DNA from: a virus
Direction: 5' to 3' (one strand)
Length of the DNA: 43,776 nucleotides
IMG/VR virus record: IMGVR_UViG_3300031841_004368
Coordinates: 1-43,776 of that record
Shown here: positions 924 to 41,903 of the stretch, piece after piece
How positions within the stretch are numbered: position 1 is the first letter of the stretch
Layout: each line of letters starts with the position of its first letter
Notes under the pieces: generated by a model
The model's input: the letters and a program-made list of their open reading frames with translations, nothing else
What the model was told of the DNA's origin: nothing
Database searches by the model: none
Translations under genes and position numbers: made by a program

Positions 924-934
924 GGCAACCTATG
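924..934 (+). repeat. Directional late-gene motif, copy before terminase
   Basis: GGCAACCTATG, 23 bases before the terminase ATG. It diverges from the consensus GG(A/C)AAN(C/T)TAG at the final G only. Confidence 0.5.
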
Positions 935-957
935 TATGTGTAAAAACGGCCATAAGA

Positions 958-2310
958 ATGGGTGTCTTGGGCGTCATCCCCGGCGGTAAATGCTTTGAGC
1001 CTCCCGTACATCGCAGCACAAGATGCACAAAGACATACGACGAGTTCTTCAATATGATTTGGGAGGATCTACTTCCTCACCAAAAAGAGTTTGTAGTTGA
1101 CACGGAACACAAGATATTAGGACTCTGCGCAGGCTTCGGCGCCGGCAAAACGTACAGCCTGTGTGTGCGCATATTGATCGACTGCATGAGATACCCGAAC
1201 ACGGTTTTATGTGTGTTCGAGCCCACCTACCAAATGCTGTTAGACGTATTCATCCGATCATTTGAGGAGATTCTTGAGAAGTACGGCGTCGAGTACGACT
1301 ATCGCGCATCCCCCCAGCCTGAGTTCACTGTCCACACCCCCACCGGCAAAGCAACGCTGCTGTGTAGAACAATGGAGAGCTACAACCGCATCCGTGGCGC
1401 CAACTTAAGCATGGTATATGCCGACGAGATTGATACATCCCGCCCGCATATTGCCGAGAAAGCCTCACAAATGATCTTGGCACGTTTGAGAGGCGGACCC
1501 AACCCACAATTTTGCCTCGCCAGTACACCAGAAGGCTACGGATACATGTGGCAAACATTCACCCAAAGACCCGGAGCTGACCGGCGTCTAATCAAGGCCA
1601 AGACTCTCGACAACCCCTACCTCCCCGACGGATTCGTTGACTCCCTATATGCCAACTACCCACCCCAGCTCCTCGCCGCCTACCTAAACGGAGAGTTTGT
1701 CGCACTCGACAAGACAGTCGTCTATCCATATTTCGACCGCGACACGCACTGGAGCGACGAAACAATCCAGCCCACCGACACGATTTACGTGGGAGCAGAC
1801 TTCAACGTAGGCGCCTCATTCCTAGAGGTTTTCGTCCGTCGTGGTGACGCCTACCACGTCATCGAAGAGCACTACCCGAAGGACACCCCATCCGTCGTCA
1901 AGCTACTGCAAGAGCGCTTCCCAGACCACATAGCGAAGGGCCAGCTCACCATCATCCCCGACGCCAGCTCACGCAAGCGCACCACCAGCAACGCTGCCGA
2001 GAGCGACTTAGGCATTCTCCGCAAAGGCGGCCTACGAGTAAAGATTCAAAACACCAACCCACTAATCGAGGATCGTGTCAACGCAGTCAACGTGCTTCTA
2101 ATGAACAACCGCCTCTACATCAACCCCAGCTGCAAGTATCTAATCCGCAGTTTCGAGACACAGACCTATAACGAAAACGGCAGTCCAGACAAGTCAGGAC
2201 GAGGAGTAGAGGACCGCTCCGGCCCAGTGGATGCTGCAGGCTACGTGATTCACGCCCTTGCGGGTCTGCGCCGTTATGTCACCGGAGGCAGCAATTTCCG
2301 ATACAAGTAA
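958..2310 (+). CDS. terL: Terminase large subunit
   Basis: The motor ATPase and nuclease that packages DNA into proheads, about 450 residues, a normal length. A Walker A loop GFGAGKT lies at residues 59-65 and a Walker B VYADEID at about 153-159. The coupling-motif region CLASTPEG follows near 187-193. The RNase H-like nuclease domain has candidate metal-binding aspartates in VGADFNVG (about 281), IIPDASS (about 334) and GPVDAAGYVIHAL (about 424). The ATG at 958 sits 23 bases after a copy of the late-gene motif, the usual spacing here. An internal ATG at 1054 would shorten the N terminus but keep all motifs. No small terminase subunit is obvious beside it. Confidence 0.95.
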   Translation: MGVLGVIPGGKCFEPPVHRSTRCTKTYDEFFNMIWEDLLPHQKEFVVDTEHKILGLCAGFGAGKTYSLCVRILIDCMRYPNTVLCVFEPTYQMLLDVFIRSFEEILEKYGVEYDYRASPQPEFTVHTPTGKATLLCRTMESYNRIRGANLSMVYADEIDTSRPHIAEKASQMILARLRGGPNPQFCLASTPEGYGYMWQTFTQRPGADRRLIKAKTLDNPYLPDGFVDSLYANYPPQLLAAYLNGEFVALDKTVVYPYFDRDTHWSDETIQPTDTIYVGADFNVGASFLEVFVRRGDAYHVIEEHYPKDTPSVVKLLQERFPDHIAKGQLTIIPDASSRKRTTSNAAESDLGILRKGGLRVKIQNTNPLIEDRVNAVNVLLMNNRLYINPSCKYLIRSFETQTYNENGSPDKSGRGVEDRSGPVDAAGYVIHALAGLRRYVTGGSNFRYK

Positions 2311-2314
2311 GCGA

Positions 2315-2325
2315 GGAAATCTAGG
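2315..2325 (+). repeat. Directional late-gene motif, copy before portal gene
   Basis: GGAAATCTAGG in the 35-base gap between terminase and portal, 20 bases before the GTG start. Confidence 0.65.
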
Positions 2326-2345
2326 CAAAAGACAGCAGCAGAAGA

Positions 2346-3926: not shown

Positions 3927-3934
3927 GGTAAGCG

Positions 3935-4810
3935 ATGGCCCGTAGCGAACAAGAGAACGAGGAGTATCTAAGGCTTTTATGGCTTCTGCTTCGCGAGAGT
4001 GAAGTCAAGCTGCAGGATGTTACCCGTCCATTGTTGCTTCTGCTGTTATGGCAATTCCGCAACCAGCTTTTAGCCACATTCCCCACCACCGGCCAAAGCC
4101 GACAACTTCAGGTCAGTTCACTGATCAAGAGTCTTGAGGGTCCGCTAGGTCGATACAACGATCAATTCAGGGAAGTATTGATTCGCGAGCTAGAGATAGT
4201 CGATAGTTCCAGTGCCATAGAAGCGTCCAAATTCGCTCAATACGAACTCCCCCTCACCCGCCGCGACTACACACCCCGAAAGGGAGACGACCTTCTCAAA
4301 ACCACCCGCGCGTCAGGAATGACCCTTTACCGCTACCTGACAAAGGATGCGCGAGGGATCAGTCCTTTTATGCGCAACCACATGCGAGCTGCAAGAGCAA
4401 AGGTGGATGCCGGAATTATGAGAGGCGACAGTTCAATAGAGATTGCTCGATCGATCGTGGCAGAGCGCACTGTGCGCGGCTACATCCAACCAATCAACAG
4501 TCGCGGCACGCTCTACGCCTTATTGCGCAACCGCGACACAGCACTAATCGCCAACACCGTGTGGGATGTATCCGGCTATGCCGAGCGAGAAGTTTTTGCC
4601 CGACAGCAGTACCTAACCACACGCAAAGGCAAACCCCCCAGCGCTGAATTTATTCCAAACGGGTGGGTATGGAATGCGATTTTAGATCCGCAGACATGCC
4701 CAATATGCCGCCCCTTACATCTAACGAGGTACGCGAGCATCAGCGACGCACCTTACCGCCCCCCTGTGCATCCTCGTTGTCGCTGTCGTCTTCTACCTGC
4801 ACAGACATAA
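3935..4810 (+). CDS. MuF-like minor head protein
   Basis: A 291-residue protein. Its C-terminal part carries the Mu gpF signature: LDPQTCPICRPLH near residues 250-262 and PPVHPRCRCRLL near 276-287. The paired CxxC and HxxCxC pattern suggests metal binding. The family acts in head morphogenesis and is often packaged with the DNA. The N-terminal two thirds is mainly helical, with a leucine-rich segment (RPLLLLLLWQFRNQLL) around residues 31-46. A GAGG ribosome-binding sequence precedes the ATG. The position directly after the portal gene is standard. Confidence 0.85.
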   Translation: MARSEQENEEYLRLLWLLLRESEVKLQDVTRPLLLLLLWQFRNQLLATFPTTGQSRQLQVSSLIKSLEGPLGRYNDQFREVLIRELEIVDSSSAIEASKFAQYELPLTRRDYTPRKGDDLLKTTRASGMTLYRYLTKDARGISPFMRNHMRAARAKVDAGIMRGDSSIEIARSIVAERTVRGYIQPINSRGTLYALLRNRDTALIANTVWDVSGYAEREVFARQQYLTTRKGKPPSAEFIPNGWVWNAILDPQTCPICRPLHLTRYASISDAPYRPPVHPRCRCRLLPAQT

Positions 4811-4821
4811 GGCAACCTAGA
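4811..4821 (+). repeat. Directional late-gene motif, copy before scaffold gene
   Basis: GGCAACCTAGA starts directly after the TAA stop of the MuF-like gene and ends 19 bases before the scaffold ATG. Confidence 0.7.
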
Positions 4822-4840
4822 TTGCACTATCCCACCCGAC

Positions 4841-5554
4841 ATGCCTGAGCAACAGATTCCTGCAGAGCAGGAGTCAGCGGCAGTTGATTCCGTGAATCAA
4901 CCCCCAGCCGAGGATGCTTCTGCACTACGCGCCAAATTAGAACTTGTTCAACGGGACAATCTCGCCAAAGGCGAGGCGAACCGCAGTCTGAACGAAAGGC
5001 TTGGCGAGAGTGAGAAACGTCTACGGGAAATGGAAAGCCAGCTCAAGGCAACCAACCAGCAAACGCTCGAATCAAGCGGGGAGTACAAACAGCTTTGGCA
5101 GGACGCTTCAGCAGAGAACGGCAAGTTGATGCAGCGCATCAGCGAGCTTGAGGGACAACTACAGCAACGTGACCAAGCCATCAGCGCCGAGCGATTGAAG
5201 GCAAGCACGATCAATAAGTTGTCAGCTGCAGGAGCAATCAGTCCAGAGCAGTTATACGGCCTTCTTCAGTCGCAACTGAGGGAATCAAACGGCCAACCTG
5301 CAGTGATTGTCAACGGCATCGAGCAACCACTCGACGCCCATCTGAGCACACTGAAGAGTGAAAACAGCGGTTGGGACCATCACTTTGCAGCCAATCGTGG
5401 CGCAACCGGGATGGGCAGCAGGACTTCCACCAGCGTGGAGGCAAATGCAAACCCCTTCAAAAAGGAGAGTTTCAACATGACAGAAGCTCTTTTGATGGAG
5501 GAAAAGAATCCCGATCTAGCTAAGCGCCTACGTGCGGAAGCTGGTCTGGGGTGA
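4841..5554 (+). CDS. Probable capsid scaffolding protein
   Basis: A 237-residue acidic protein with a long charged region, residues about 28-125, rich in Glu, Gln, Arg and Leu and expected to be coiled coil. Such proteins direct assembly of the major capsid protein and then leave or are digested. The C terminus (NPFKKESFNMTEALLMEEKNP) is basic and then helical, as in scaffold tails that contact the capsid protein. It lies directly upstream of the major capsid gene, the usual place. No protease domain is visible, so this appears to be a separate scaffold without a fused protease. Confidence 0.8.
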   Translation: MPEQQIPAEQESAAVDSVNQPPAEDASALRAKLELVQRDNLAKGEANRSLNERLGESEKRLREMESQLKATNQQTLESSGEYKQLWQDASAENGKLMQRISELEGQLQQRDQAISAERLKASTINKLSAAGAISPEQLYGLLQSQLRESNGQPAVIVNGIEQPLDAHLSTLKSENSGWDHHFAANRGATGMGSRTSTSVEANANPFKKESFNMTEALLMEEKNPDLAKRLRAEAGLG

Positions 5555-5583
5555 TCACGGTAAACCCCTTTCTTTAAGAAAAA

Positions 5584-6669: not shown

Positions 6670-6690
6670 TTCAAGGCGTTGACAGCAAAG

Positions 6691-6716: not shown

Positions 6717-6737
6717 GCGTGCTTGACGCTATCGGTG

Positions 6738-7019
6738 TCACTTCTTAGTTCTGTTCTTCTCAAACCTCTCGAAGGTTGCTTTCGTGTTGACCGTCGATTG
6801 GTATGAGCGCGTCCGCACTTGTTTAACAAGCATCGGATTGATCTTTAGTTCCTCTGCGATCTGAGTATCAGTCTTACCTTCACCCATCAGCCGATGCAGA
6901 TCCTTTACGAGATCATCCCAGAGCCGTTCGTTAAGCCCTTCTGCGGCCTTTGCGGCTACACGATCAGCTTTACGACGCCCTTTGGTGTAACTGACCTTAT
7001 GCGAAAGCTCTTCTGTCAT
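6738..7019 (-). CDS. Small helix-turn-helix DNA-binding protein
   Basis: A 93-residue basic protein read against the surrounding late genes. A likely helix-turn-helix lies at about residues 52-70 (TDTQIAEELKINPMLVKQVR), followed by a basic tail ending ERFEKNRTKK. The ATG at 7019 was preferred over an upstream frame extension because a minus-strand copy of the late-gene motif (7047-7036) lies just before it and the extension would run into the next gene's leader. It could be a regulator of late genes or a displaced small terminase subunit, which also starts with such a motif; the sequence does not decide. Confidence 0.65.
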   Translation of the reverse strand: MTEELSHKVSYTKGRRKADRVAAKAAEGLNERLWDDLVKDLHRLMGEGKTDTQIAEELKINPMLVKQVRTRSYQSTVNTKATFERFEKNRTKK

Positions 7020-7035
7020 GCCCAAGTTTGACTCT

Positions 7036-7066
7036 CCATAGATTGCCTCACCAGGCAACCTTGGAG
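7036..7066. repeat. Divergent pair of late-gene motifs
   Basis: The minus strand carries GGCAATCTATGG (7047-7036) and the plus strand GGCAACCTTGG (7054-7064). They sit back to back with a six-base spacer. Each points towards its own gene, the minus-strand gene starting at 7019 and the plus-strand gene starting at 7085. Together they form an imperfect inverted repeat. Confidence 0.65.
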
Positions 7067-7084
7067 TAAAGGGCGGAGAAGACC

Positions 7085-7684: not shown

Positions 7685-8209
7685 TTGCCGCGCAACCAGC
7701 GACCACGAACGGGCTACCTAAGCACACCTCTATCACGGGAGGAGCAGAGGTACGCAGCCGATATGTATCGCCAGCACCAGGGGCTAGTCAGGATGATGGG
7801 CCGCAAGCTTTGCCGTAAATACCCGTTTGTCTCATCTGAGGATGTGTTCAGCAGCATTGACTTTGCCTTCTTAAAGGTATGTCGCGCATGGCGTCCCGAG
7901 CGCGGTGCATTTAGCACACTTCTAGGTGTGTTTTGTGAAGGCGAAGTATTGCACTTCATCCGTGACCATAACTTCATCATCAAAGCCCCCGGCAACGTGC
8001 GCCGCACAGGTCAGCTTGCTCGACGACTTTTAAGCAAAGGTGCATCTAAGGACCAAGTAATGGTTGAGCTATCAATCACCTCAGAGCAGTTTGAGCAGGC
8101 TCTAATCGCAACATGCGCTGCTGACCATGAGATTAAAGGGTTTGAGTTGCACATTTGCCCCAGAGCTACACCTATGGAGACTTTAGAAATGAATGATACG
8201 GCAAATTAG
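7685..8209 (+). CDS. Short sigma-factor-like protein with regions 2 and 3 only
   Basis: A 174-residue protein. Residues about 31-98 align with sigma-70 region 2: HQGLVRMMGRKL, then VSSEDVFSSIDFAFLKVCRAW, the diagnostic RPERGAFSTLLGVFCEGEVL, and HFIRDHNF. Residues about 100-140 (APGNVRRTGQLARRLL, then a helix-turn-helix-like DQVMVELSITSEQFEQAL) match region 3 of SigB/SigF-type factors. No region 4 follows, so the protein could not contact a -35 element in the normal way. Layout and size recall the T4 late sigma gp55. It probably directs host RNA polymerase to late promoters. Start is TTG at 7685; a later ATG at 7763 would cut into region 2. Confidence 0.7.
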   Translation: MPRNQRPRTGYLSTPLSREEQRYAADMYRQHQGLVRMMGRKLCRKYPFVSSEDVFSSIDFAFLKVCRAWRPERGAFSTLLGVFCEGEVLHFIRDHNFIIKAPGNVRRTGQLARRLLSKGASKDQVMVELSITSEQFEQALIATCAADHEIKGFELHICPRATPMETLEMNDTAN

Positions 8210-8778: not shown

Positions 8779-8946
8779 ATGCCAGTCGAGACTGAGATGA
8801 CTGAAGACGGATGTGTGAAGATCACAGTGACCGAGGAAGGGATCACGGAGGTTGGTTGGGTGTCCTCGTTTCACTTGGTTGCTCCGAAAGTCACGCAGTT
8901 GGTTAGCAGCATTCGCAAGAAAGCGATGAACGCATTATTTACTTGA
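8779..8946 (+). CDS. Small acidic hypothetical protein
   Basis: A 55-residue protein starting at ATG 8779 immediately after the terminator's T-run. It contains VKITVTEEGITEVGWVSSFHLVAPKVTQLVSSIRKKAM. An upstream in-frame ATG at 8734 would translate through the terminator hairpin, so the later start is preferred. Its end overlaps the minus-strand gene at 8939 by eight bases. Being placed right behind a terminator, it would need read-through or its own promoter, so its reality is uncertain. Function unknown. Confidence 0.4.
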   Translation: MPVETEMTEDGCVKITVTEEGITEVGWVSSFHLVAPKVTQLVSSIRKKAMNALFT

Positions 8947-9397
8947 ACTGCTCTTGCAGGAACGGAAGCACAGGCACTCTTTCGCGTGCCAGTGTCACCC
9001 AGTCACGCGGAGTGCGATAGAACGGCGTGCCGTCGAGGCCTATGTAATCGCCCGTGATCACCTGCTCGGCGTAATAGGCATCCCAGCCGATTACAGCCGT
9101 GACCTTCTTGTTTCCCTTCGCGGGGTATGGTTTCTGCAGCGACGCGGCAAGGAAGCCGGTGTCGGAAATTTCGCGAACATCTTGCACTCTTCTTCCGTCA
9201 TTCTTATACCAAGTGACTGTACTTCCGGTTTCGCGCTCACGGTAGCCGGTCCATTTCTTGTTGTAAATTATCTCCGTACCTTCCTGGCCGATAAAATCCT
9301 GAAAATTAGACAGGCCCACATACAGCTCAAGAGCAAGCTCTTCACCGAACTGCTCAGTTGACTTGGTGAACCTAGATCTGCCTAATCTTACTGTCAT
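8939..9397 (-). CDS. Tail-completion protein, HK97 gp10-like (probable)
   Basis: A 152-residue protein on the minus strand inside the late module. A helical start (FTKSTEQFGEELALELYVGL) leads to DTGFLAASLQKPYP, VTAVIGWDAYYAEQVITGD and PRDWVTLARERVPVLPF. The run (S/D)TGxLxxSL, then a strand with YAxxV, then a final helix is the usual outline of HK97 gp10-like neck proteins. Start ATG 9397 overlaps the stop of the preceding gene (ATGA), so the two are coupled. Its orientation against the other head genes is unusual. Confidence 0.6.
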   Translation of the reverse strand: MTVRLGRSRFTKSTEQFGEELALELYVGLSNFQDFIGQEGTEIIYNKKWTGYRERETGSTVTWYKNDGRRVQDVREISDTGFLAASLQKPYPAKGNKKVTAVIGWDAYYAEQVITGDYIGLDGTPFYRTPRDWVTLARERVPVLPFLQEQFK

Positions 9398-9783
9398 CTC
9401 TGTCTCCTAGACACCAGCACAATCTTCTCCCCCAGCGCCTGAGCGAGCACACCACCAAGCAAACCAGTTTTCCCGTAAGGAGGATTCAGCTCAAGCACCT
9501 CACAATCCACAGCGGGCTCGGAAGCGAACGTAACGGACCCTGTAGAACCCACCAGCACACGACTGTCGAGCGTGCTTACTACATAGCCTTCATAATATGT
9601 CTGCTCAATGTCTACACCGGGGAACTGACGATTCCGTTGCTTATCGGACTTTAGGAACAGATCGACAGTGGCGGTTTCCTCCACCGGTTTGATATTTCCG
9701 GTTTCTGGATCCGTTATGGTTGCCTCCCCAGCCACTTTGAAAGAGGCAGAGGCGTTTTTTAGTCCGGTGAGAGCAGATGCCAT
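9394..9783 (-). CDS. Probable head-closure (stopper) protein
   Basis: A 129-residue beta-rich protein. Segments ETATVDLFLKSDK, VDIEQTYYEGYVVST and DCEVLELNPPYGKTGLLGGVLAQAL suggest a small barrel with an exposed loop, compatible with a neck stopper that seals the filled head. The function is inferred mainly from its coupling to the gp10-like gene downstream, since stopper then completion protein is the usual order. It starts at ATG 9783, directly after a minus-strand copy of the late motif. It diverges from the tape measure gene. Confidence 0.45.
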   Translation of the reverse strand: MASALTGLKNASASFKVAGEATITDPETGNIKPVEETATVDLFLKSDKQRNRQFPGVDIEQTYYEGYVVSTLDSRVLVGSTGSVTFASEPAVDCEVLELNPPYGKTGLLGGVLAQALGEKIVLVSRRQR

Positions 9784-9784: not shown

Positions 9785-9808
9785 CCCTAACTTGCCAGGC
9801 AATCTTGG
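9785..9808. repeat. Divergent pair of late-gene motifs
   Basis: The minus strand reads GGCAAGTTAGGG (9796-9785), one base from the minus-strand ATG. The plus strand reads GGCAATCTTGG (9798-9808), 24 bases before the tape measure ATG. The two motifs are separated by a single base and form an inverted repeat, like the pair at 7036-7066. Confidence 0.65.
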
Positions 9809-12800: not shown

Positions 12801-13939
12801 AAAATCTTATCGACTTTCTTAGGGGTAAAGACCCAGACTTTTTAACAAATATACCAGAATTTGCTGAGATATTCAATGAATCCAAAGAGTCTATTGCGGC
12901 TCAAGAAAAACTCTTGGGCAAGCAGAAAGACATATTCGGAGTAGATTTAGATCTGGCGAAAGTATCCGGCAAGGATGCAGATGCAGAAATAAAATTTCTT
13001 GAGAAGAAGCTAGGTCTTACGAGAAAATTTAATAGAGCAAACGAAGAGGTCATTCAGAACGATGCAGAGCGAAGTGCCGCGAATCAGAAGAACCTTGCAG
13101 CTGAGGAGCAAGCACTAAGGAGGATCAACGATCTCAAGGTCAAGTCCCTTCAGCAAGATCTCGCTTTCTCGAACAACATCTCTGCATTATCCCGCCAGCG
13201 AGTTGACCTACTGGCTGCGCAGGGCAAGGAAGACCCGTCAAGCTTCCTTCAGATACAGGGAGTTTTAAGTCAGTTCCTTGCTCAGCGGGATCAGGCCAAT
13301 CTTCTCTCGCAGGTCGCTGCTGAGGATTTTGAGAACGTAGAGGCAGGGAGGCGGGCCACTGAGGCCAGCGAGACTCTGAAGAACGGCTACCTAGAGGCCA
13401 ACCTAACCCTGAAGAAAGGTCTTGAGGACGCTCAGCGCCAGGCCCGCAACATCGGCTTCGCACTGAACGATGCGCTGGGCAATCTGGCCACGGCCCAGCA
13501 GGGCTTCGCAGGACTAGGGAACCTCCAGACCATCAGCGTAAGCGGCGGCCCTGACATTTTCGAGGCGTTCCGGGGCAAACGTGATCAAGCCCTGCAGCTG
13601 GCCAAGGATCTTGGAGTGACGCTGGACTTCGACGTACCGGTGAGCGGGGTGTTGACCGAGCGGTTCGCGAGGCGTCAGATCCGCGACTTCGACAAGTTCA
13701 TTGAGGCCGGCAGACCATTACGTGACGCCCGAGTAGGTGTTGAGGATGCTCAGCGTAGTAAGGATATAAGCGACGAGACGGTTCAGAACTTCAAAACTGC
13801 AATCGCATCTCTGAACAGTGAAGCCACCCCTGCAATGAGAGACCTAGCCACCAGCGTTGATAACCTGGCCAAGAAAGAATGGCGCATTGACATTCAAGTT
13901 GAGGGGCAACCTAGAGTCATCAGGGAAGGCGTTTACTAA
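9833..13939 (+). CDS. Tail tape measure protein
   Basis: At 1368 residues it is the largest protein here; it sets tail length and probably helps DNA entry. It is mostly helical and charged, with long heptad-like stretches (for example residues 1060-1110 and 1150-1210). A very glycine-rich hydrophobic stretch at about residues 734-790 (GGLIGGGFPLLFGQGALPA, then IGGGIGGVVGGLLGG) may enter the membrane. A strongly basic run RRRRLRRKRSRERINRV precedes it near 705-725. No lysozyme or peptidase domain is visible. It begins with MAQGGDGLDLGAAEIKVVVDY, a beta-strand opening seen in many tape measures. Base composition is locally richer in A and T around 12380-13080. Confidence 0.95.
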   Translation: MAQGGDGLDLGAAEIKVVVDYSSALEGVKQFKTQFDSTLSGTGANVFQGIEQQAIAAGRKAANSFAAAFKKVKIEPVVKAGNKNELSEIQKLVQEATKPIKERAGAPLAQLFKLQPQTVGDYKELAAGLDKIRSNTNAGASEIELLNRKIEDLRLSLKLLTSTGTTTFDDLRESAQRTIPLTKKIGDAILGATPAWVSFSTKTVADVIQALDATGQKATELAQKFKGAASAAKGIVSVTKDVAGAGFNVAKRGVGDLSIVGSALAGRESSQKLLSDRLQIFRDLGTEAKTTAGAITRISEGAGLLGISANLAPSLDALSGLTGLIREVVTSSESIVDKGLSKLPFGLDVLEQVPNIGSGATRILDETVKQGSALANTLAPIGDLINDVAAQLTAIGPAGAVGFAAATAAAAALESKFKLIEKSVNAVASKIKFNLGEIKAELAKPLPLGELEDLLKAERSGLREVTPGSQEEKNALITIASLENQITDQKKAQERFTKQITMSERERLSYVRAAVDLERVAKNERGRLPALPSTQQLQRTVDSQGRVFPQRINGTIDFTNPLTVGNQYTPEGRRFFGGNAFDSLDNQLTNAPRTDYRDILRRFLAAEDGFFDKRIEFFSKEEKRFSDIDTARRNDRNLKASKRSRSRLNAFAALSGGDYAYEQFLKQSGADIASQLGRIQDDFDTATNFRTALDDRRRSREQEEADRRRRLRRKRSRERINRVIQARKRNADRRSGALQGGLIGGGFPLLFGQGALPAIGGGIGGVVGGLLGGPGGSFAGSIVGTAIFTALDGLANSANTAAAALEKPVESLNKLVEGKLITSSTANLASTVQGQGQLALARLIIDQGLRETGADELVNPRKAQEVKDREFVDTQNQIAIQKQFGGFDLGRDIQRAVSFYTGVYDDLSTNFAIETRDENGDLLVNPRLRARETLAGAAIGKLKDAAVKAKIITEKEYNKEFIAGQLEAGNVGQNLLGTFPIRSKVTEVGQNLIDFLRGKDPDFLTNIPEFAEIFNESKESIAAQEKLLGKQKDIFGVDLDLAKVSGKDADAEIKFLEKKLGLTRKFNRANEEVIQNDAERSAANQKNLAAEEQALRRINDLKVKSLQQDLAFSNNISALSRQRVDLLAAQGKEDPSSFLQIQGVLSQFLAQRDQANLLSQVAAEDFENVEAGRRATEASETLKNGYLEANLTLKKGLEDAQRQARNIGFALNDALGNLATAQQGFAGLGNLQTISVSGGPDIFEAFRGKRDQALQLAKDLGVTLDFDVPVSGVLTERFARRQIRDFDKFIEAGRPLRDARVGVEDAQRSKDISDETVQNFKTAIASLNSEATPAMRDLATSVDNLAKKEWRIDIQVEGQPRVIREGVY

Positions 13940-17911: not shown

Positions 17912-17922
17912 GGCAAGCTAGG
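17912..17922 (+). repeat. Directional late-gene motif
   Basis: GGCAAGCTAGG in the 44-base gap after the hub gene, 25 bases before the next ATG. Confidence 0.65.
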
Positions 17923-22000: not shown

Positions 22001-22590
22001 CGCTGTTTCACGCCTACCCAGGCGTTTTCTCCCCGGCCAACTTTCACAATGAACGTCGCCGCGACGTGTTCATGGCGCTTCGTCATCTGAGGGAGATGGA
22101 GCGCGATGCGGCGTGCCGGAATGAAATGCCGATCGCGTTATTGGCATCTCTCTATGCCAACGCCAACAGGGACACGAAGCGCAGAACCAAGCCTTACACG
22201 CATTCGGACTTTTCGTTCTTCGCACGGGAAGAGAGGCCCAACGACTATCTCGACCCAGGGGCTGTGGCCGTTGCGTTTGCGCTGGAGAACGAGGGCCTGA
22301 CCCCGCCGCTGCTACTGGCGGTGTGGGACAAGATCGTGAAGAGAGAGCCCGGCCCGATGCCGGATCAGCGGGCTCTCAAGAGCGACTGCGGTCGGTTGTG
22401 GATACTTGCGCCCAAGTGGGAGGGCGCAGCGTGCCGTGGCGGGTTAGTGCTGATGAAGGGCAAGCCCGAACAGACTATGCGCGTGCGGGACATTGACAAA
22501 CCGATGCTGTATTACGACCTAAAGATCCCCCAGCGCAAAGGCTTTGGATGGATCGAGGGCGGCCAGATCCTTCACCCAGCGGAAAACTAG
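21431..22590 (+). CDS. Tail assembly chaperone, -1 frameshift (GT-like) product
   Basis: The -1 frame is open from 21934 to the stop at 22588-22590 and has no start codon until GTG 22066. Slippage by one base at 21943-21949 joins residues 1-173 of the short chaperone to 213 further residues, giving about 386 residues. Past the joint the protein reads EVNWSEIALTLFHAYPGVFSP, then RRRDVFMALRHLREMERD. The segment upstream of 22066 looks like genuine protein, so calling a gene from 22066 would cut it. In lambda the long form recruits tail tube subunits to the tape measure. Confidence 0.75.
21943..21949 (+). promoter_or_regulatory. Programmed -1 ribosomal frameshift site GGGAAAG
   Basis: The heptamer is read as G GGA AAG in the zero frame, exactly the X XXY YYZ phase required. 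It is the same heptamer as in the lambda G/T tail genes. It lies 49 bases before the zero-frame stop, within the window where both frames are open (21934-22000). Confidence 0.85.
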
Positions 22591-22593: not shown

Positions 22594-22989
22594 ATGAATC
22601 TGCTTGACTTCCGCACTGAGTTAGAGACGTTGCTGGCTGACTATATCGGTCAGTACACACTCGCCAACGGGGTTAAAACCCCGTCTATAGCAGTGCGTGA
22701 GGCTGGTGAAGGCTTCCCAGCGGGAACCACAGTTGAGGGTATCGAGGTTGTTATCGTCCGAGAGCCTGAGATGATTGCTCAGTCTCAGTATCGACAGAAG
22801 CAGGCACTCAGAGAGTGGACTGTCTTTCTTGTTGATTGGGGTACGGAGCTTTATTCGCTCGAAGATGTATCAGAACTGATCATCTTCAACTACCCGAGTG
22901 CTACGTCCAGGACGTTGACTGTTCCACGGGGACTTGGACCCGAAAACCAGATGCAGATGAAGATCCGTACAAACCCGAGGGCGATCTAA
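22594..22989 (+). CDS. Hypothetical structural protein, possible tail terminator
   Basis: A 131-residue protein, MNLLDFRTELETLLADYIGQ, followed by a strand-rich part (KTPSIAVREAG, GTTVEGIEVVIVREPEM, REWTVFLVDWG). A helix, then a few strands, then an ordered C terminus is compatible with gpU-like tail terminators, which are otherwise not identified here, but the resemblance is loose. It is coupled downstream through a TAATG overlap to the fibre-base gene at 22989. Confidence 0.4.
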   Translation: MNLLDFRTELETLLADYIGQYTLANGVKTPSIAVREAGEGFPAGTTVEGIEVVIVREPEMIAQSQYRQKQALREWTVFLVDWGTELYSLEDVSELIIFNYPSATSRTLTVPRGLGPENQMQMKIRTNPRAI

Positions 22990-23777: not shown

Positions 23778-23788
23778 GGAAAACTAGC
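23778..23788 (+). repeat. Directional late-gene motif
   Basis: GGAAAACTAGC lies just after the TAG stop at 23774-23776 and 19 bases before the next ATG. Confidence 0.65.
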
Positions 23789-25405: not shown

Positions 25406-25416
25406 GGAAACTTAGG
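25406..25416 (+). repeat. Directional late-gene motif running into a hairpin
   Basis: GGAAACTTAGG overlaps the first bases of the hairpin at 25415-25432 and ends 23 bases before ATG 25440. Confidence 0.6.
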
Positions 25417-25438
25417 GGACCAGACGGTCCCCTTTTTT
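25415..25438 (+). terminator. Terminator-like hairpin touching a start codon
   Basis: Stem GGGGACC (25415-25421) / GGTCCCC (25426-25432), loop AGAC, followed by six T (25433-25438). The next gene's ATG starts at 25440. The purine-rich ribosome-binding sequence of that gene (AGGGG) is in the 5' arm, so the hairpin may both stop transcripts and hide the ribosome-binding site. Confidence 0.75.
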
Positions 25439-27782: not shown

Positions 27783-27793
27783 GGAAACTTAGA
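27783..27793 (+). repeat. Directional late-gene motif
   Basis: GGAAACTTAGA directly follows the TAA stop and ends 17 bases before GTG 27811, with GGGAG between as ribosome-binding site. Confidence 0.7.
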
Positions 27794-27810: not shown

Positions 27811-29406
27811 GTGGCGGTCTTCACGTTTGTTACTGACTTTCAGCTGTTTGGCAACCGGGGTAGCAGTACCACTGGCTATAACGCTTTAGGCGGTGGTGCC
27901 AGTGGCCTATCTGTCGAGACTGACTTTTATATTGAGGGCACTACGTGCATCTCAAAGCAGGTAAAACAAGAGAATAAAGGCATCGAATACGCTTACTCTA
28001 CCCTCACGATATTTCCTCCAACAAATGCGACAACAATGAACATTTACCAGTGGGTTTATACAACAACCAAGCAGGCTATGTATGAGAGGACAGCCGGGGG
28101 TGGTGCTAATTCTGGCGGATTGGAAATCGATGTGGCTGGCCAAAGCGGGGTCCACACTGTCACCGTAGATGGCAGGCAATCGCAAGATTTAGATTCTTGG
28201 CACTGTATTGTTTATGACCCTTACAGAAGTGGGCACACAAACCAGCTAGCGTCAAACGATGGAATTTTATCGATAGGCGCTCTGCTGAACAACGAGTTCA
28301 GTGTTCGGGGTGTCAATTTTGGTCTTGATATTTGCTGGGTGGGTAACTATGTTGGTGGCTACGGCGGCGGCGGAACAGATCCCGACGTTAGTTTTGAAGT
28401 CATTTCTGCAGTGACTGATGACCCTAGCAATCGCTATGGCGCGTTTCAGCGAAGCGGCTCAAGTTATCAGTTGCTGGGGATCTTAAACATAGGAGAGCCG
28501 GGGCAGACGACATTATTTTCAGATGTTGGAAGCTCAGTGGTTATTCCTTTGCGCAACTATCCAGAGTTAGTTGGCGCCTCCAACAATAATAATACGATAG
28601 ACAGGATCGTAGGCGTAGATTGCAGTCAAGTTGTAGTCCAAGGTGGCAGCGGCACTACAGCCAGCTTCACACGAACCATTTTCTCGTCGCTTGATCCACA
28701 GAACACAGGCCGATTCAGCACCACAGCTTCTTCGACCGTGACACTGACGAATGCAGTTTTTAGCCAGTGGGGCACGGTGACTCCAGGGGGCAGCGGCACA
28801 AGTTTTAGCAAATGTAAGTTTATTGATCTTGAGGTAGGCGTAGTCAATACAGCTGGTGGAACCTTTGACTCTTGCAGTTTTACGGACTGCCCCCCTGCTG
28901 TCAGTTCGCTCGGCAGCATCACCAACTGCACGTTTAGTAGTGATGGAACTAATGGACACGCGATAGTCACGGATGTCACCAGCGGAACGGTCTCCCTAAC
29001 CGGTAATAGTTTTGTTGGGTACAACGTGTCTGACGGCCAACTAGACAGTGCAATTCATTTCACAGCAACTTCAGGATCTGTGACAGTCTCACTTACAGGT
29101 GGTGTTCAACCTAGTTACAGAACTAACGGAATCAGTGTCACTTTTCAGTCGTCTAGCACACTCACGCTGACAGGCTTAATTAACGGGTCCGAGATTCGCG
29201 TCTATCAAAACGGTACGACCACAGAGGTTGCTGGTATCGAAAGCACGTCTTCATCGACCTTTGCTACTGCCGTCAACGTCTCTGCTGTAGACATTGTTAT
29301 CCACAACCTCGGCTACATCCACCAGCGGATTGTCAATGTAGACACTTCGACTGATCGTAACCTGCCCATTGAGTACCAGATCGATCGACAGTATCTCAAC
29401 CCTTAG
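27811..29406 (+). CDS. Parallel beta-helix spike, paralogue without LamG insert
   Basis: A 531-residue paralogue of the upstream spike. It shares GGGASGLSVETDFYIEGTTC near the N terminus, beta-helix rungs with FSKCKF, FDSCSF and ITNCTF, and the C-terminal domain TLTGLINGSEIRVYQNGTTT through RQYLNP. Where the neighbour has its LamG domain, this protein passes directly from NCTFSSDGTN to GHAIVTDV. The start is GTG at 27811. The pair probably arose by tandem duplication; both may sit on the same tail organelle. Confidence 0.75.
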   Translation: MAVFTFVTDFQLFGNRGSSTTGYNALGGGASGLSVETDFYIEGTTCISKQVKQENKGIEYAYSTLTIFPPTNATTMNIYQWVYTTTKQAMYERTAGGGANSGGLEIDVAGQSGVHTVTVDGRQSQDLDSWHCIVYDPYRSGHTNQLASNDGILSIGALLNNEFSVRGVNFGLDICWVGNYVGGYGGGGTDPDVSFEVISAVTDDPSNRYGAFQRSGSSYQLLGILNIGEPGQTTLFSDVGSSVVIPLRNYPELVGASNNNNTIDRIVGVDCSQVVVQGGSGTTASFTRTIFSSLDPQNTGRFSTTASSTVTLTNAVFSQWGTVTPGGSGTSFSKCKFIDLEVGVVNTAGGTFDSCSFTDCPPAVSSLGSITNCTFSSDGTNGHAIVTDVTSGTVSLTGNSFVGYNVSDGQLDSAIHFTATSGSVTVSLTGGVQPSYRTNGISVTFQSSSTLTLTGLINGSEIRVYQNGTTTEVAGIESTSSSTFATAVNVSAVDIVIHNLGYIHQRIVNVDTSTDRNLPIEYQIDRQYLNP

Positions 29407-29416
29407 GAAACCTAGA
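29406..29416 (+). repeat. Directional late-gene motif, consensus copy
   Basis: GGAAACCTAGA. Its first G is the last base of the TAG stop of the spike gene; it ends 17 bases before ATG 29434. Confidence 0.7.
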
Positions 29417-29943: not shown

Positions 29944-29954
29944 GGAAACCTAGA
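29944..29954 (+). repeat. Directional late-gene motif, consensus copy
   Basis: GGAAACCTAGA directly after the TAA stop, 22 bases before ATG 29977. It is identical to the copy at 29406. Confidence 0.7.
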
Positions 29955-30396: not shown

Positions 30397-30424
30397 GGCA
30401 AAATAGAGCAGCCGGAAAGATAGA
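30397..30424 (+). repeat. Two tandem late-gene motif variants
   Basis: GGCAAAATAGA (30397-30407) and GGAAAGATAGA (30414-30424), both with A at the seventh base. The second ends five bases before ATG 30430. Confidence 0.45.
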
Positions 30425-32406: not shown

Positions 32407-32688
32407 GTGACTAATTCACAACCCTCCAAGAGATGGATCACAGGAGCAATAACACTCGAACAGGAGCTTGAGTGCGAGAGAGCTAGCAGAGCAATCATGA
32501 ACGAAGCAGACATGGATGGCGTCAGAAAGCTTTGTGTATCTCTACTCAAAACTCACTACAGACAGATGAAGATGCTAGAGGAATCTATGCTCAGAATTTC
32601 TGAATTGGAGATTCTGGCGTTTCTGCTCAGTGAGGCTGAACAAGCCGACCTTGTGACGCTTAGGGATAACGCAAGGGATATGCTCTGA
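32407..32688 (+). CDS. Small helical protein, possibly NblA-like
   Basis: A 93-residue protein starting at GTG 32407. The core ITLEQELECERASRAIMNEADMDGVRKLCVSLLKTHYRQMKMLEE resembles the helical hairpin of the phycobilisome degradation protein NblA and related small cyanobacterial proteins (an LxLEQE start and a later LxxxYRQM helix). This is a visual match only. If correct it would help dismantle host light-harvesting antennae. Its last 114 bases lie antisense to the end of the sigma factor gene. An operator-like site precedes it. Confidence 0.5.
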   Translation: MTNSQPSKRWITGAITLEQELECERASRAIMNEADMDGVRKLCVSLLKTHYRQMKMLEESMLRISELEILAFLLSEAEQADLVTLRDNARDML

Positions 32689-33594
32689 CTTAGGCGCTGT
32701 GTCAGTGTTGCGTACATCGTTTCTACGCAGGTGGCCCCGGATCTTTGCGCGTGCCTTGTTCTCCTTCTGACGTACTCGTTCCCTAGATATACCTGTGTCA
32801 CGGGATATTTCTGCATAGCTGCATTCTGGCCGACCATTGACGCCCCACTTCCTTTCAACTAGCATCCGCTCTTCTTCTGTTAGTGCATTGAGAGCTATCA
32901 ACATTCTTTCATTTTCATACTCATAGAAATCAGGATCATCATCCAGTGATTTTGGGCAGGGGATGAAGTCGTGCATAGGACCACGACCGTCAGTATGTTC
33001 TCTGCTTTCGTCGAGACTGGCTATGGCCCGCCGTCTGTCCAGCACAAGTTCTACTTCTGCGACGGGCTGGTTTAGAACTTCAGCAATGTTTTTGGATGTT
33101 ATGGCTTTGTTAGTCTCCATCAATTTAGGAATCGCTGAGACGCTGATTTTGGTCTCAAGATCCGCTAACTGACCGGGTTTTTTAATTAAGGTCTCGGCCT
33201 TCTGGATCTGTCTCGTGATCTGTTGGCGGATCCACCAATACGAGTAGGTACTAAACTTGTATCCTCTAGTTGGGTCAAAGCTTAGGCAAGCTCGCGCCAA
33301 GCCGATGTTGCCTTCTTGGATTAGATCCAGCATCTCCAGGTGCGTAACACGCCTCATGTATCGCTTCGCGACCATGATCACCAGCCGTAGGTTGCCTTGA
33401 ATTAGGCGATCCCGAGCACGCTTGCCGGCACGGATGATTCTCTTTTCTTTTGCTGTCGGATTCGTCGGATCTTTAGTGTTTATGAGTTCTTGCCACCGCT
33501 GGATGCGATGACCACACTCAATTTCCTCCGCTCCCGTTAGAAGTGGATGCCGACTGATCATGTCTAGATAGTCGGCCATTGGGTCAATAGACAT
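32575..33594 (-). CDS. RpoD-like (group 2 type) sigma factor
   Basis: A 339-residue primary-type sigma factor. Region 1.2 is DYLDMISRHPLLTGAEEIECGHRIQ (residues 8-32). Region 2 contains DRLIQGNLRLVIMVAKRY and the -10-reading YKFSTYSYWWIRQQITRQI (112-130). Region 3 follows, and region 4 has LTEEERMLVERKWGV and YAEISRDTGISRERVRQKENKARAKI (238-286). All DNA-reading parts look intact, and the order is that of cyanobacterial RpoD paralogues. It probably redirects host RNA polymerase. A 49-residue tail after region 4 lacks known content and is the only part overlapping the plus-strand gene. It starts three bases after the zinc-ribbon gene. Confidence 0.9.
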   Translation of the reverse strand: MSIDPMADYLDMISRHPLLTGAEEIECGHRIQRWQELINTKDPTNPTAKEKRIIRAGKRARDRLIQGNLRLVIMVAKRYMRRVTHLEMLDLIQEGNIGLARACLSFDPTRGYKFSTYSYWWIRQQITRQIQKAETLIKKPGQLADLETKISVSAIPKLMETNKAITSKNIAEVLNQPVAEVELVLDRRRAIASLDESREHTDGRGPMHDFIPCPKSLDDDPDFYEYENERMLIALNALTEEERMLVERKWGVNGRPECSYAEISRDTGISRERVRQKENKARAKIRGHLRRNDVRNTDTAPKSEHIPCVIPKRHKVGLFSLTEQKRQNLQFRNSEHRFL

Positions 33595-36550: not shown

Positions 36551-36588
36551 TTCGCCTGTGGTTGTCACCACGTTTCGTGAATTTTGCA

Positions 36589-36604
36589 ACACTAAATTTA
36601 GTGT
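36589..36604. repeat. 16-bp perfect palindrome behind the integrase gene
   Basis: ACACTAAATTTAGTGT, a perfect palindrome in the 74-base gap between the converging integrase and DNA polymerase genes. It could be the core of an attachment site, a protein-binding site or a weak two-way terminator; no T-run of useful length follows on either strand. Confidence 0.6.
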
Positions 36605-36624
36605 CTCGGCTAAGTAGCTATTCA

Positions 36625-38433: not shown

Positions 38434-38567
38434 CCAACCTCCCTAGCTCAGGTCAAGCCTAGAGAGGTTATTTGACTTGTCTACTGCGGACTCATGAGAA
38501 TCAACCCAAGAAGGTTGAAAAGCCAAAATTACCTCTCTAGGTTCCCATTGCAGTACGCAACTCAGCG
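38434..38567. promoter_or_regulatory. Divergent polymerase/primase control region
   Basis: Two inverted repeats face opposite ways: GCCTAGAGAGGT (38457-38468; the minus strand reads ACCTCTCTAGGC) serves the polymerase, and ACCTCTCTAGGT followed by TCCC (38531-38546) serves the primase-helicase. On each side the repeat lies about 20-25 bases before the start codon. This is the clearest sign that the repeats are shared operators of replication genes. Confidence 0.65.
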
Positions 38568-40859
38568 ATGCTCCGATCAGAGCAGATTGATTCTCTCGCA
38601 GCGCTTCCCGACGAATGGCGTTACACCCTCACAGGGGGTAAGGGCAGTGTCAAACAACCCATCAGCGCAGGCTGGAACATCAAAGGAAACGGCCTGTCGA
38701 GAGACTCGATCGAGCTGATGGCCGAAGGGCACAAAGACGCTGACTCATGGAAGATCGCAGCAGCAACAGGTATTGGCGCCATCACAGGCCCGGAGTCAGG
38801 CGGTCTGCTGGTGATTGACTTCGACGGTAAAGGGGACCAGGCGGAGAAAGTCTTTGCCTCCCATTTTGGAAGGCCCTCCAGCGATCTACCAAGTACATGG
38901 ACCACCATCTCAGGTAAGGCGGGAAGAAAGAAGATCTTTCTTCGAGTCACACCAGATCAAGAACTTGAGCTGAATAACCGGTCGGCAGTCTGGCGAGACG
39001 AGGAAGGTCTGACAGTCCTAGAGGCCATCTGGAGGAACACCACCGGCACCGGAAGGCAGGCTGTAATCAGCGGCACACACCCCAGCTCCACTAAGGAAAA
39101 CCCACTGTTTTACCGGTGGGTCAACTCCGGCAGTGAATGGGCCACATGCCCCGATTGGGTAGCGGAAGGCGTTCTCCGACAGATGGATAACGCCCGCAGC
39201 GTTGTCGATGCCACCCGCAGTGGAGAGAAAGACGGTGAGCCCACAGCCTATGAGCAGTTACCAATTCCGAAGCGCTGGGAGCTTTGTGCCAACGCATTAG
39301 ACAGCTGCCCAACTCGCGACGGAAAAGGGTCAAGCACTTACACCACAGTTCGTCGTGCGATCTGCGCACTGCTGCACGAATGGGGCGCCCCACTAGCAGA
39401 AATGATGATCGCCCAGAGCAAATGGGACACCAAAAACAACTGGGGACCAAACGAAAGCGCAACGCAGTTGTTGAGAAGCCTGCAACAGTCTGATATTCCC
39501 CAGAACGAGAAGGTAACGATCGGTTCTCTGTTTCGCCTAGCTCAGCTGCACAGCGACTGGATCTGGCCTGACGAGTACAAGCCCCCGAAGCCTGCGAGTG
39601 CGATTGAGAAGCAGGAGATCGACAAGTTGATAGCTCAGATGAACTTCCACTATCAAGACAAAACAATGTCGGCTTTGATCAGAGGAAAGCTGTCCAAGTT
39701 CTATGGAATCAGAGACAGTGAGATCATGACACTCCGGCTGGAATCAGCGCTGGGGCATGTCGTCAAGGCTGAGAAGAAAGCGGAGCAGGCACAGGATGTT
39801 TTCAACGGCCTTATCTCACGTCGCGTTCACCTTCTCGCAGGAGCTTCCCACTCCGGTAAAACCAGCCTGGCAGCTTTCATGGCTGGAAAGGTGTTGAACA
39901 GCGAGTTCCTAACGCAGGATGACTTCGACTTCGGTGAGGATGTTGAGCTTCCATCCGGGCCGATGAACTGCATTGACATCGGCAGAATCCGCCACTCCAG
40001 CTCAAAGCCGGGGAAGGTGCTTGTTTTCACCAGCGACTGCAGTGACGAAGACATGATGCGCGACATCGCGATTGAAGGCGCATCGAGGACAGGAATGGAC
40101 GCACGGCTCAAAGTGGTTAGCGGGCTTGGCTTTGCCCAGATGGTGGAGATCGTTCTCAACATCCAGGACTTTGAGCCAGACCTAGTGATCATGGACTGCC
40201 TGAGCAGCATGGCGCTGCCTGGCATCTCACAGGCCGATGCAGCGTATGCCGCCCCCATCCGTGAGCTGGTGCGATTCAACGGCGCCAAGTGGAAAAAGGC
40301 AGCATTTCTGATCCTGCACCACACGACCAAGGCAGATCCACGCAAGTCAGCAGGCACTGAGCAGATCAAAGCAGCATCAGAAGAGCTGCTGGTCTATTAC
40401 GACCCGCACCAGGCCGCCCACGTCGGCAAGCCTGGCCGACCCAAGAAGAACGTATTGCCGAACGTCCGTCATCTTGAGTTCGAGAAAAGCCGGGGTGGAT
40501 ACAAGGGCAAGACAATCGTCATCGAGCGCGACGGCATGGCCGGCAGGTGGGACTGGCGCCTTTATGAGACAGACCCCAAAGAGATGACTGCTTTCGACTT
40601 TCTAGTGAGTTCGTTGATGAATTGCACTGACGAAGAATGGCGTACTCCATCCGAATGGCGAGACCGTCTCAACGCTGCCCACATAAGCAGGAGGATGACT
40701 TGCCGCTACATGGCCCAGCTGTCGGGAAAAATTCTTGACAGGCAGTGCATCCCCGATCGGCGTAACCGACTGACCACCCACTACAGGATCAAGCCGGAGG
40801 TGACGCACGCCGCCAAGCAGATGCTGAAGAGCAACGGAATGGGCAATAACTTCGTGTGA
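38568..40859 (+). CDS. Primase-helicase (prim-pol N terminus, RecA-like ATPase C terminus)
   Basis: A 763-residue protein. The N-terminal region resembles bifunctional primase/polymerase domains: QPISAGWNIKGNGLS, IAAATGIGAITGPESGG and LLVIDFDGKG with metal-binding Asp84 and Asp86. After a linker, a RepA/DnaB-like ATPase has Walker A AGASHSGKTSL near residues 424-434 and Walker B LVIMDCLSSM near 539-548. The tail is basic and may contain a winged helix (WRDRLNAAHISRRMTCRYMAQL). It would open the fork and prime synthesis for the divergent family A polymerase. Start ATG 38568 lies 25 bases after the operator-like repeat. Confidence 0.85.
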   Translation: MLRSEQIDSLAALPDEWRYTLTGGKGSVKQPISAGWNIKGNGLSRDSIELMAEGHKDADSWKIAAATGIGAITGPESGGLLVIDFDGKGDQAEKVFASHFGRPSSDLPSTWTTISGKAGRKKIFLRVTPDQELELNNRSAVWRDEEGLTVLEAIWRNTTGTGRQAVISGTHPSSTKENPLFYRWVNSGSEWATCPDWVAEGVLRQMDNARSVVDATRSGEKDGEPTAYEQLPIPKRWELCANALDSCPTRDGKGSSTYTTVRRAICALLHEWGAPLAEMMIAQSKWDTKNNWGPNESATQLLRSLQQSDIPQNEKVTIGSLFRLAQLHSDWIWPDEYKPPKPASAIEKQEIDKLIAQMNFHYQDKTMSALIRGKLSKFYGIRDSEIMTLRLESALGHVVKAEKKAEQAQDVFNGLISRRVHLLAGASHSGKTSLAAFMAGKVLNSEFLTQDDFDFGEDVELPSGPMNCIDIGRIRHSSSKPGKVLVFTSDCSDEDMMRDIAIEGASRTGMDARLKVVSGLGFAQMVEIVLNIQDFEPDLVIMDCLSSMALPGISQADAAYAAPIRELVRFNGAKWKKAAFLILHHTTKADPRKSAGTEQIKAASEELLVYYDPHQAAHVGKPGRPKKNVLPNVRHLEFEKSRGGYKGKTIVIERDGMAGRWDWRLYETDPKEMTAFDFLVSSLMNCTDEEWRTPSEWRDRLNAAHISRRMTCRYMAQLSGKILDRQCIPDRRNRLTTHYRIKPEVTHAAKQMLKSNGMGNNFV

Positions 40860-41269
40860 CCCACTGGTGACCTATCGGGGGCGGCTCTTCGCCCCTTTAT
40901 ACATTAGCTAGTGTTTTTGGACCTTACTAGGCAAACCCCAGTCGTAGCAAGGGTTTTGCAGTGTAATCATCTAGTTCCTAGTAGGGTACTTGTCTCTACC
41001 CCTCTCACTAGAGTACAAAAAAGGACTTCACTTAATAGTGGGTGTGTGTCTACACAGGATGGCCGGGGTTGAGTATTTAGGTGTCTAGGTACGCTTCTAG
41101 ACTCAAGATAGTGTTCTAAAGAAAACCAGTCATACCAATGGATCTACCTTATAAGGACACACATAACAAAAGTAGTATTTATACGTGCGTATGCGTGCGC
41201 GTTATCTCCTTAGGTTGACGTACACACCCATGCGTTCCTAGAAAGGGTCTCCACCCCAGCTAGACAGAC
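40860..41269. promoter_or_regulatory. CTAG-dense intergenic region, possible origin or control hub
   Basis: No credible gene lies in these 410 bases. CTAG occurs at 40908, 40927, 40971, 40978, 41008, 41085, 41097, 41238 and 41260. The region also holds the palindrome CCTTATAAGG (41147-41156), an alternating purine-pyrimidine tract (41180-41202) and TCTCCTTAGGTTGAC (41205-41219), an imperfect operator-like site. It separates the replication enzymes from a possible repressor. Candidate roles are replication origin and multi-site operator. Confidence 0.6.
41180..41202. other. Alternating purine-pyrimidine tract
   Basis: 23 bases of unbroken Y-R alternation rich in GC/GT steps (TACGTGCGTATGCGTGCGCG core), able in principle to adopt Z-DNA under negative supercoiling. 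It lies just upstream of the operator-like site at 41205. Confidence 0.5.
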
Positions 41270-41902
41270 ATGAGCAAGCGACTGCCCGAGACAGAGACAC
41301 CCATCGACCAGCAGCTCAAAAGGGGACGTGAAGCCTTCACCCAGCACTTCAATTTCTTTCTAGGCAGCGCCAGCTCAACAGATCTGATGAAGCTCGCGGA
41401 CACCGTATGCGGTAAGCGTTACATCCACAGCTCCATGATCCAAAACCTCAGAAGGGGAACGATCAAAGACCCCAACCACGCAGCCCTGTTAGCTCTTGGA
41501 GCGGTCAACCGTCACATTTCCGAGGGAGGCAGTCATATTTTTGTGCCGATGCGCAAGAGCGACGGCAGCCCAATAGACGAGAGCACTGTTCACCTCGCCT
41601 TTCTCGGACTAATCGATCTGCAACCCCTGCCCGAGACCTTGAGCCCCTGGCCCACACCGGAGCAAGAGAACCTGATCGTCCAGAAGCTTTCTCACGAAGC
41701 CCGTAAGACTTTGATCAATGGGGACGTTGACTTCTATCAAAACCTTGACCAGTACACACCTTTAGTTAGTTCTCTGCTCACCTCCAAGAAAGGTCTGAGC
41801 TTGAGAGAGATTCTTAACGAGCCATCTCTCTATGCAGTGCTTGGCTGGGATAAGAGCTACCCCATCGAACTGGCACGAACCTGCATAGGTAGGGAAAGCT
41901 AG
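41270..41902 (+). CDS. Possible phage repressor with helix-turn-helix-like N terminus
   Basis: A 210-residue protein. Residues about 35-85 (STDLMKLADTVCGKRYIHSS, MIQNLRRGTIKDPNHAALLALGAVN) resemble a Cro/CI-type fold, with a first helix LMKLADTV, a recognition-helix region IHSSMIQNLRRG and a later LxALxAVN helix. The rest is helical and may give dimer contacts or a second function. It lies behind the CTAG-dense region and an operator-like site, a layout suggesting self-control. Unlike classical CI there is no visible LexA-type peptidase. Repressor function is an inference. Confidence 0.55.
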   Translation: MSKRLPETETPIDQQLKRGREAFTQHFNFFLGSASSTDLMKLADTVCGKRYIHSSMIQNLRRGTIKDPNHAALLALGAVNRHISEGGSHIFVPMRKSDGSPIDESTVHLAFLGLIDLQPLPETLSPWPTPEQENLIVQKLSHEARKTLINGDVDFYQNLDQYTPLVSSLLTSKKGLSLREILNEPSLYAVLGWDKSYPIELARTCIGRES

Positions 41903-41903
41903 T
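41893..41903 (+). repeat. Directional late-gene-type motif in the early region
   Basis: GGAAAGCTAGT overlaps the TAG stop of the possible repressor and ends 18 bases before ATG 41922, showing that the motif is not limited to structural genes. Confidence 0.55.

Follow-up and report, generated by a model that had tools for sequence, protein, structure and literature searches.

The window analyzed here, the whole 43.8-kb stretch of DNA, is a viral contig of siphovirus type in which a short directional sequence recurs ahead of many genes, and the question it raises is what this sequence does. Its terminase large subunit (TerL) shares 42% identity with that of cyanophage KBS-S-2A and its portal protein 36% with that of S-2L. 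Head and tail genes run mostly rightward up to approximately 30 kb, and genes for lysis, a sigma factor, a serine integrase, DNA polymerase, and primase lie beyond. A Megablast comparison of its first 25 kb with phage records returned no match, and relatives of the window were therefore found via protein comparison; no portal relative was found when the window portal protein was scanned against bacterial genomes. A simple gene caller was used, and both the start codons and the gap counts given for the contigs are therefore approximations. Based on the analyses below, we consider that the repeated motif is a promoter (probability about 0.94) and that it very probably serves as the start signal of the phage late (virion) genes.

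A directional motif upstream of gene starts

The original prediction listed 18 copies of an 11-base motif (16 on the plus strand and two on the minus strand). All of them were recovered at their coordinates with zero or one mismatch to GGMAANYTAG, including the copies at 29406 and 29944, which are identical over 11 bases as had been claimed; however, only the 10-base core is informative, the 11th base being weak, and a 19th strong copy at 13905 had been overlooked. Exact matches to the core number 12 on the plus strand and one on the minus strand, versus one and zero for a control pattern read backward. For all 13 exact copies, a gene start follows on the same strand at a distance of 12-42 nt; this zone comprises 1.3% of strand positions (binomial p 4e-25, a value that is flattered because the pattern itself was derived from most of the same sites). 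A search without motif input in 32-nt windows upstream of starts ranked GGnAAnnTA first (10 of 39 starts versus 0.25 expected); the same gapped pattern was also the best in G011, a contig that is syntenic with the window and about 30-55% identical to it in protein sequence, and patterns of the GGnATnCT or GGAAnnnTA types emerged in S-CBS2 and G046. The motif also survived the position scan that had been proposed as its check, since density in coding regions was not equal to that in gaps and strand bias was strong. A loose scan allowing one mismatch gave 49 matches versus 31 +/- 5 by chance, so that weak copies are inseparable from noise by sequence alone. Some late genes that have gaps carry no copy, the major capsid gene (5584) among them. 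A literature search with the letters GGAAAACTAG revealed nothing relevant.

The predicted promoter cores begin with GGCAACCTAT (924-933, plus strand), 24 nt before the ATG of terL (958), with the same core at L010 1592. The next two plus-strand cores precede the portal gene (GGAAATCTAG, 2315-2324; GTG at 2346) and the scaffold gene (GGCAACCTAG, 4811-4820; start at 4841), and both have orthologous copies in L010 and G011. On the minus strand, GGCAATCTAT (7038-7047) points leftward, 18 nt from the ATG of a small ORF that starts at about 7019, and both this ORF and its motif are conserved in L010. A weaker plus-strand core with one mismatch (GGCAACCTTG, 7054-7063) lies 21 nt before the head-tail adaptor gene (7085), and the next gene downstream is a sigma factor gene at 7685. 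The major tail gene (8237) is preceded by GGCAAATTAG (8200-8209, plus strand), whose own TAG doubles as stop codon for the sigma ORF; this copy is identical in L010 although both flanks differ, and the G011 orthologue also has a copy. Two cores stand back to back at the tape-measure gene (9833): GGCAATCTTG (9798-9807, plus strand) before that gene and GGCAAGTTAG (9787-9796, minus strand) for the minus-strand gene 9783-9394. The same divergent pair is present in G011, where the orthologue of the minus-strand gene has GGGAAACTAG 24 nt ahead of its ATG. The overlooked copy, again GGCAACCTAG (13905-13914, plus strand), is situated within the 3' end of the tape-measure ORF, 24 nt before the ATG at 13939, and G011 carries GGCGATCTAG at the same embedded place, likewise at 24 nt.

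The remaining cores are all on the plus strand. GGCAAGCTAG (17912-17921) lies 26 nt before gene 17948, with GGTAACCTAG at the matching place in G011. GGAAAACTAG occurs twice: at 22581-22590, 3 nt before the ATG at 22594, where its own TAG ends the upstream gene and the G011 orthologue has a spacing of 24 nt, and at 23778-23787, 20 nt before gene 23808, whose homologue in G019 is preceded by GGAAAACTAA. GGAAACTTAG precedes gene 25440 (25406-25415, 24 nt) and gene 27811 (27783-27792, 18 nt to a GTG), and GGAAACCTAG precedes genes 29434 (29406-29415, 18 nt) and 29977 (29944-29953, 23 nt). ORF 30430 has two weaker cores in tandem, each with one mismatch (GGCAAAATAG, 30397-30406, 23 nt; GGAAAGATAG, 30414-30423, 6 nt), and GGAAAGCTAG (41893-41902), whose TAG ends ORF 41270-41902, lies 19 nt before gene 41922.

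Minus-strand genes (8939-9783 and 6738-7019) are found inside the rightward structural operon; they have homologues in G011 or L010, and two of them carry their own leftward motif copy. Another exact repeat, ACCTCTCTAGG, was observed at 38458-38468 (minus strand), 38531-38541 (plus strand), and 42188-42198 (plus strand), where it precedes the DNA polymerase, primase, and gene 42225; at two mismatches its occurrence is not above chance, and it might represent another class of promoter, early or middle.

Start-point signature, spacing, and terminators

Alignment of the copies reveals that the two initial G residues, the fourth base (A), the eighth (T), and the ninth (A) are almost invariant, that the third is A, C, or T, and that the seventh is C or T. 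A -10 box depends most on its -11 A and its -7 T, and the fourth and eighth bases of the motif fall at these key positions. The main signal in the flanks is an enrichment of purines at offsets 13-14 from the first G, which is 6-7 nt past the T of the motif. At offset 14, purines make up 81% in the window, G011, and G019 combined (p 3e-5 versus leader); at offsets 13 and 14 they reach 82% and 70% in S-CBS2/S-CRES2 and 81% and 89% in six further phages, with mostly 30-65% at other flank positions. This purine pair should mark the predicted start point (+1). There are no conserved -35 bases, flank information being near zero there in three site sets. Thus, each copy probably acts as a late-class, single-element promoter in which GG-MAANCT-AG would form a -10-type box (GG at -14/-13, M-A-A-N-C-T at -12 to -7, and A-G at -6/-5), with transcription starting on the purine 6-7 nt past the T and leaders of about 14-23 nt.

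The distance from motif to gene is in line with such leaders. Most window sites end 18-27 nt before the start codon, the spacing is mostly 24 nt at G011 sites and 16-23 nt in the S-CBS2 type, and in six further phages 87 spacings of 16-23 nt were counted versus seven for the reversed pattern. Spacings of 17-27 nt had been given as usual, with occasional values of 1-5 nt; the former range holds for most sites, but true 3-nt cases are found in the window at just 22581 and minus 9796, since at 30414 the 6-nt spacing is that of the second of two tandem copies, the first lying 23 nt from the start. At 22581 and minus 9796, the A of the ATG is itself the predicted start point; leaderless transcripts would fit these two sites. 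The original prediction named a promoter first yet considered that it explained only part of the sites on account of the short spacings, which in fact appear compatible with a promoter if transcription starts on that A. Two other readings of the motif were dropped: a hairpin or GNRA loop, for which no conserved pairing partner was found upstream, and a -35-type element (ECF GGAAC), for which no -10 element follows downstream and the purine signature lies 6-7 nt after the T.

Transcription terminators provide further evidence. Among 78 sense-strand terminators from 11 phages, 21 have the motif within the next 15 nt, usually followed by a gene, whereas the reversed-pattern control gave none after the same terminators. 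A promoter is needed at such places because transcription that has just stopped must restart there. One terminator-like hairpin (GGGGACC-AGAC-GGTCCCC-TTTTTT, 25415-25438, plus strand) lies between the motif at 25406 and the start codon. Its 5' arm would span approximately positions -5 to +2 relative to the predicted start; most of the arm would then be missing from transcripts initiated at this motif, and they should not terminate. Hairpins between motif and start codon were also observed at G019 36552 and at S-CBS2 32942 and 33353. In total, such terminator-motif overlaps number six versus two in the control, and a meaning for them is suggestive only.

A small SigF-like sigma factor and its co-occurrence with the motif

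The most plausible reader of the motif is encoded in the window itself. ORF 7685-8209 (plus strand, start codon assigned as TTG), which in the late operon follows the head-tail adaptor gene and precedes the major tail gene, encodes a proposed late sigma factor of 174 aa with SigF-like regions 2-3 and no region 4. It matches a PHROG sigma family (E 1e-8), the NCBIfam SigF model at E 7e-4 (far below the curated score cut-off), and Pfam Sigma70_r2 at E 1.4e-3 (below cut-off). The SigF match covers profile positions 33-147 of 258 and stops there, and a Pfam search detected no Sigma70_r4; because region 4 is missing, the protein is best called SigF-like and not a full member of the SigF/SigB/SigG family. 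It is homologous to the second sigma factor of S-CBS2 and S-CRES2. All 22 scanned members of this small sigma family match NCBIfam SigF at E 0.01, and a profile of 29 relatives retrieved FliA (E 1e-13) and sigma F (E 1e-10) from the PDB. The predicted domain superposes on the sigma2 domain of 8b3z with a TM-score of 0.79 by target length (1.9 A over 76 columns); Foldseek matches had E values above 0.001, with a good fit for the sigma2 domain only. A profile scan with the family found 79 loci. In the model of one longer relative, the place of region 4 is taken by a helical domain, and the loss of region 4 is clear for the window clade only. In S-CBS2, the frame of the second sigma factor (gp077, L076:16832-17564) ends early (VPQGRC) and the tail of the S-CRES2 sigma matches the stretch past this stop in another frame; the early end appears to be a frameshift or sequencing error.

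Distribution of the motif among relatives follows that of this sigma factor: besides S-CBS2 and S-CRES2, dozens of contigs encode a relative of it, and most of these are motif-rich. In G011, the motif precedes orthologues of the portal, scaffold, major tail, and tape-measure genes, genes 13939 and 22594, and the minus-strand gene 9394-9783, and exact-pattern counts in whole records of relatives are one-sided, at 9 to 0, 6 to 0, 5 to 0, and 5 to 0. Structural-region genes often carry it (18/44 in S-CBS2 and 18/41 in S-CRES2) and other genes rarely do (3/58 and 5/58, respectively). Across 32 contigs with the small sigma factor, GGHANNCTAG occurs 202 times in sense and 26 times in antisense orientation, versus 110 and 88 for the reversed control; no comparable sense-strand excess was found in 18 records in which the small sigma factor was not detected. 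The variant GGAAnnCT, usually preceded by C (CGGAAnnCT), lies upstream of 22/102 and 21/100 starts in G034 and G037, the carriers that diverge most (<1 expected). The expectation that related cyanophages have the motif at orthologous gaps therefore held for relatives with 30-55% protein identity but failed for KBS-S-2A, S-2L, S-H1, and MED4-184, in which neither the motif nor a relative of the small sigma factor was found; sharing appears to hold mainly for carriers of the small SigF-like sigma. Deviating cases are the incomplete contig G019, which has the motif and in which the small sigma was not seen, and the contig fragments G054 and G059 (L176-L179), in which the small sigma is present and the top upstream pattern is other than the GG motif. 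When only loci of <=20 kb around the sigma gene were considered, the excess was weak for most (95 versus 52 expected), which is as expected if sigma sits among early genes in S-CBS2-type phages, and whole records are thus needed. KBS-S-2A has TAnACTG before starts instead of the GG motif. Boxes of the TAAACTG/TAGACTG type precede orthologous late genes in KBS-S-2A (L057; 20524 and 34305) and S-H1 (L058; 22237 and 33950), at about the same distance to the start as the GG motif.

These observations make it likely that the small sigma factor reads the motif: host core RNA polymerase carrying this phage-encoded, shortened SigF-type sigma would recognize each copy, no -35 element being needed because the protein has region 2 but no region 4, and the sigma gene may be autoregulated through the motif copy at 7054. 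An unlikely but still appreciable alternative is a promoter with a different reader, namely host SigF, the second sigma factor of the window, or a phage activator acting with host polymerase. Host SigF recognizes GGTAA at -12 (PMC2758279), but its promoters also require TAGGC at -32, where nothing is conserved here. The second sigma factor (32575-33594, minus strand) is of the full RpoD/SigA type (TIGR02997, E 3e-61; Pfam regions 1.2, 2, and 4), and its promoter-recognition residues gave no clear answer when inspected by eye. It is present in the window and G011; however, it is not the favoured reader because KBS-S-2A and S-2L also have this RpoD-type sigma and lack the motif, whereas the small sigma tracks the motif.

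More than half of the distinct small-sigma relatives (36 of 61) carry a Q-x-x-L-F tail, usually QGSLF or QPSLF, right at the C-terminus or close to it (e.g., L097, L101, L115, L087, L092, and S-CRES2 gp23 at L077:12308-13042). Shuffling would yield 0.07 such tails, although the sequences are related and do not represent independent events. The tail is present in both the S-CBS2 type and the divergent G034/G037 type and absent from the sigma factors of the window, L010, G011, and the L080-type clade. In bacteria, the beta-clamp motif takes the form QL(S/D)LF and is C-terminal (PMC9690074). We tentatively suggest that in S-CBS2-type relatives the QGSLF tail might tether the late sigma factor to the host beta sliding clamp, so that replicating DNA would switch on late transcription, the window clade being a version without the tether; the odds are somewhat against this idea.

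Other readings of the motif and known systems

Readings other than a promoter fare much worse. It is very improbable that the motif is a translation signal in mRNA, comparable to the start-associated sequences of cluster K mycobacteriophages, although it lies at a fixed distance to gene starts and Shine-Dalgarno sequences are scarcer at motif genes (3/16 versus 9/20 in the window; 4/20 versus 32/82 in S-CBS2 and 4/21 versus 30/78 in S-CRES2; not significant). The start-associated sequences contain a Shine-Dalgarno core and lie 3-7 nt from the start (PMC3203893), whereas the motif has no such core and mostly lies 18-27 nt away, which weakens this option of the original prediction; nor would such a signal account for the downstream purines or for copies right after terminators, where upstream transcripts would not carry the motif. 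Slightly less probable still is an mRNA processing site giving each late gene its own 5' end. Processing would likewise yield fixed leaders on separate messages, but 21 copies come straight after a terminator, the core resembles a -10 box in having A and T at the two usual key positions, and the divergent minus-strand genes are preceded by copies of their own. A repressor or stoperator site or a gene-exchange boundary, options likewise raised at the outset, is hardly credible: the motif is directional, intergenic, and repeated, and the phage, which has an integrase, may be temperate, but such elements predict neither the purine start point 6-7 nt downstream nor fixed spacing nor placement after terminators, and there is no reason for stoperators to follow a sigma factor in their distribution.

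If the promoter reading with the small sigma factor is right, it would name the late promoter and its likely sigma factor for a wide range of cyanosiphoviruses, S-CBS2 and S-CRES2 among them; their sigma genes have been annotated but not linked to promoters in the literature searched. Late genes could then be mapped from sequence. It would also add a further phage sigma lacking region 4 that is paired with a -10-only promoter, here of SigF type.

Several known systems share features with the proposed one. The cluster K start-associated sequences are also short directional repeats before gene starts, but they differ in their distance of 3-7 nt, their AGGAG core, and their occurrence in non-structural genes. 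Synechocystis SigF requires both TAGGC at -32 and GGTAA at -12 (PMC2758279), and the type 3 promoters of this cyanobacterial group 3 sigma share with the phage motif a GG-H-A-A element at about -12; however, the phage motif has no -32 element and the window sigma has no region 4. The phage phiEco32 protein gp36 lacks region 4, reads a single element, and starts transcription 6-8 nt downstream (PMC8948821). Like the proposed system, it is a phage sigma without region 4 served by one promoter element (tAATGTAtA, preceding middle and late genes), and its start distance compares with the purine signature at 6-7 nt here, but the element sequence is different, the host is E. coli and not a cyanobacterium, and the comparison made here covers architecture.

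T4 offers a further functional parallel: its gp55 uses a sigma2 domain to read a -10-like element (PMC7892883), and the sliding clamp activates its late transcription (PMC2988020). The gp55/gp33/gp45 system likewise combines a small sigma-domain-2 protein, a -10-like element only, and many late promoters, and many relatives of the window sigma carry a clamp-binding-like tail, although the window sigma itself does not. It differs in that its 8-bp element is another sequence and in that no gp33 or phage clamp was identified in the present system. If the clamp tether is real, it would represent a second origin of late transcription coupled to replication, a mode described up to now for T4-related phages, and the tail would make it testable whether such coupling has arisen outside the T4 family. 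In its mode of action, the proposed small-sigma late promoter would resemble the T4 late promoters, and it apparently evolved separately in cyanobacterial viruses.
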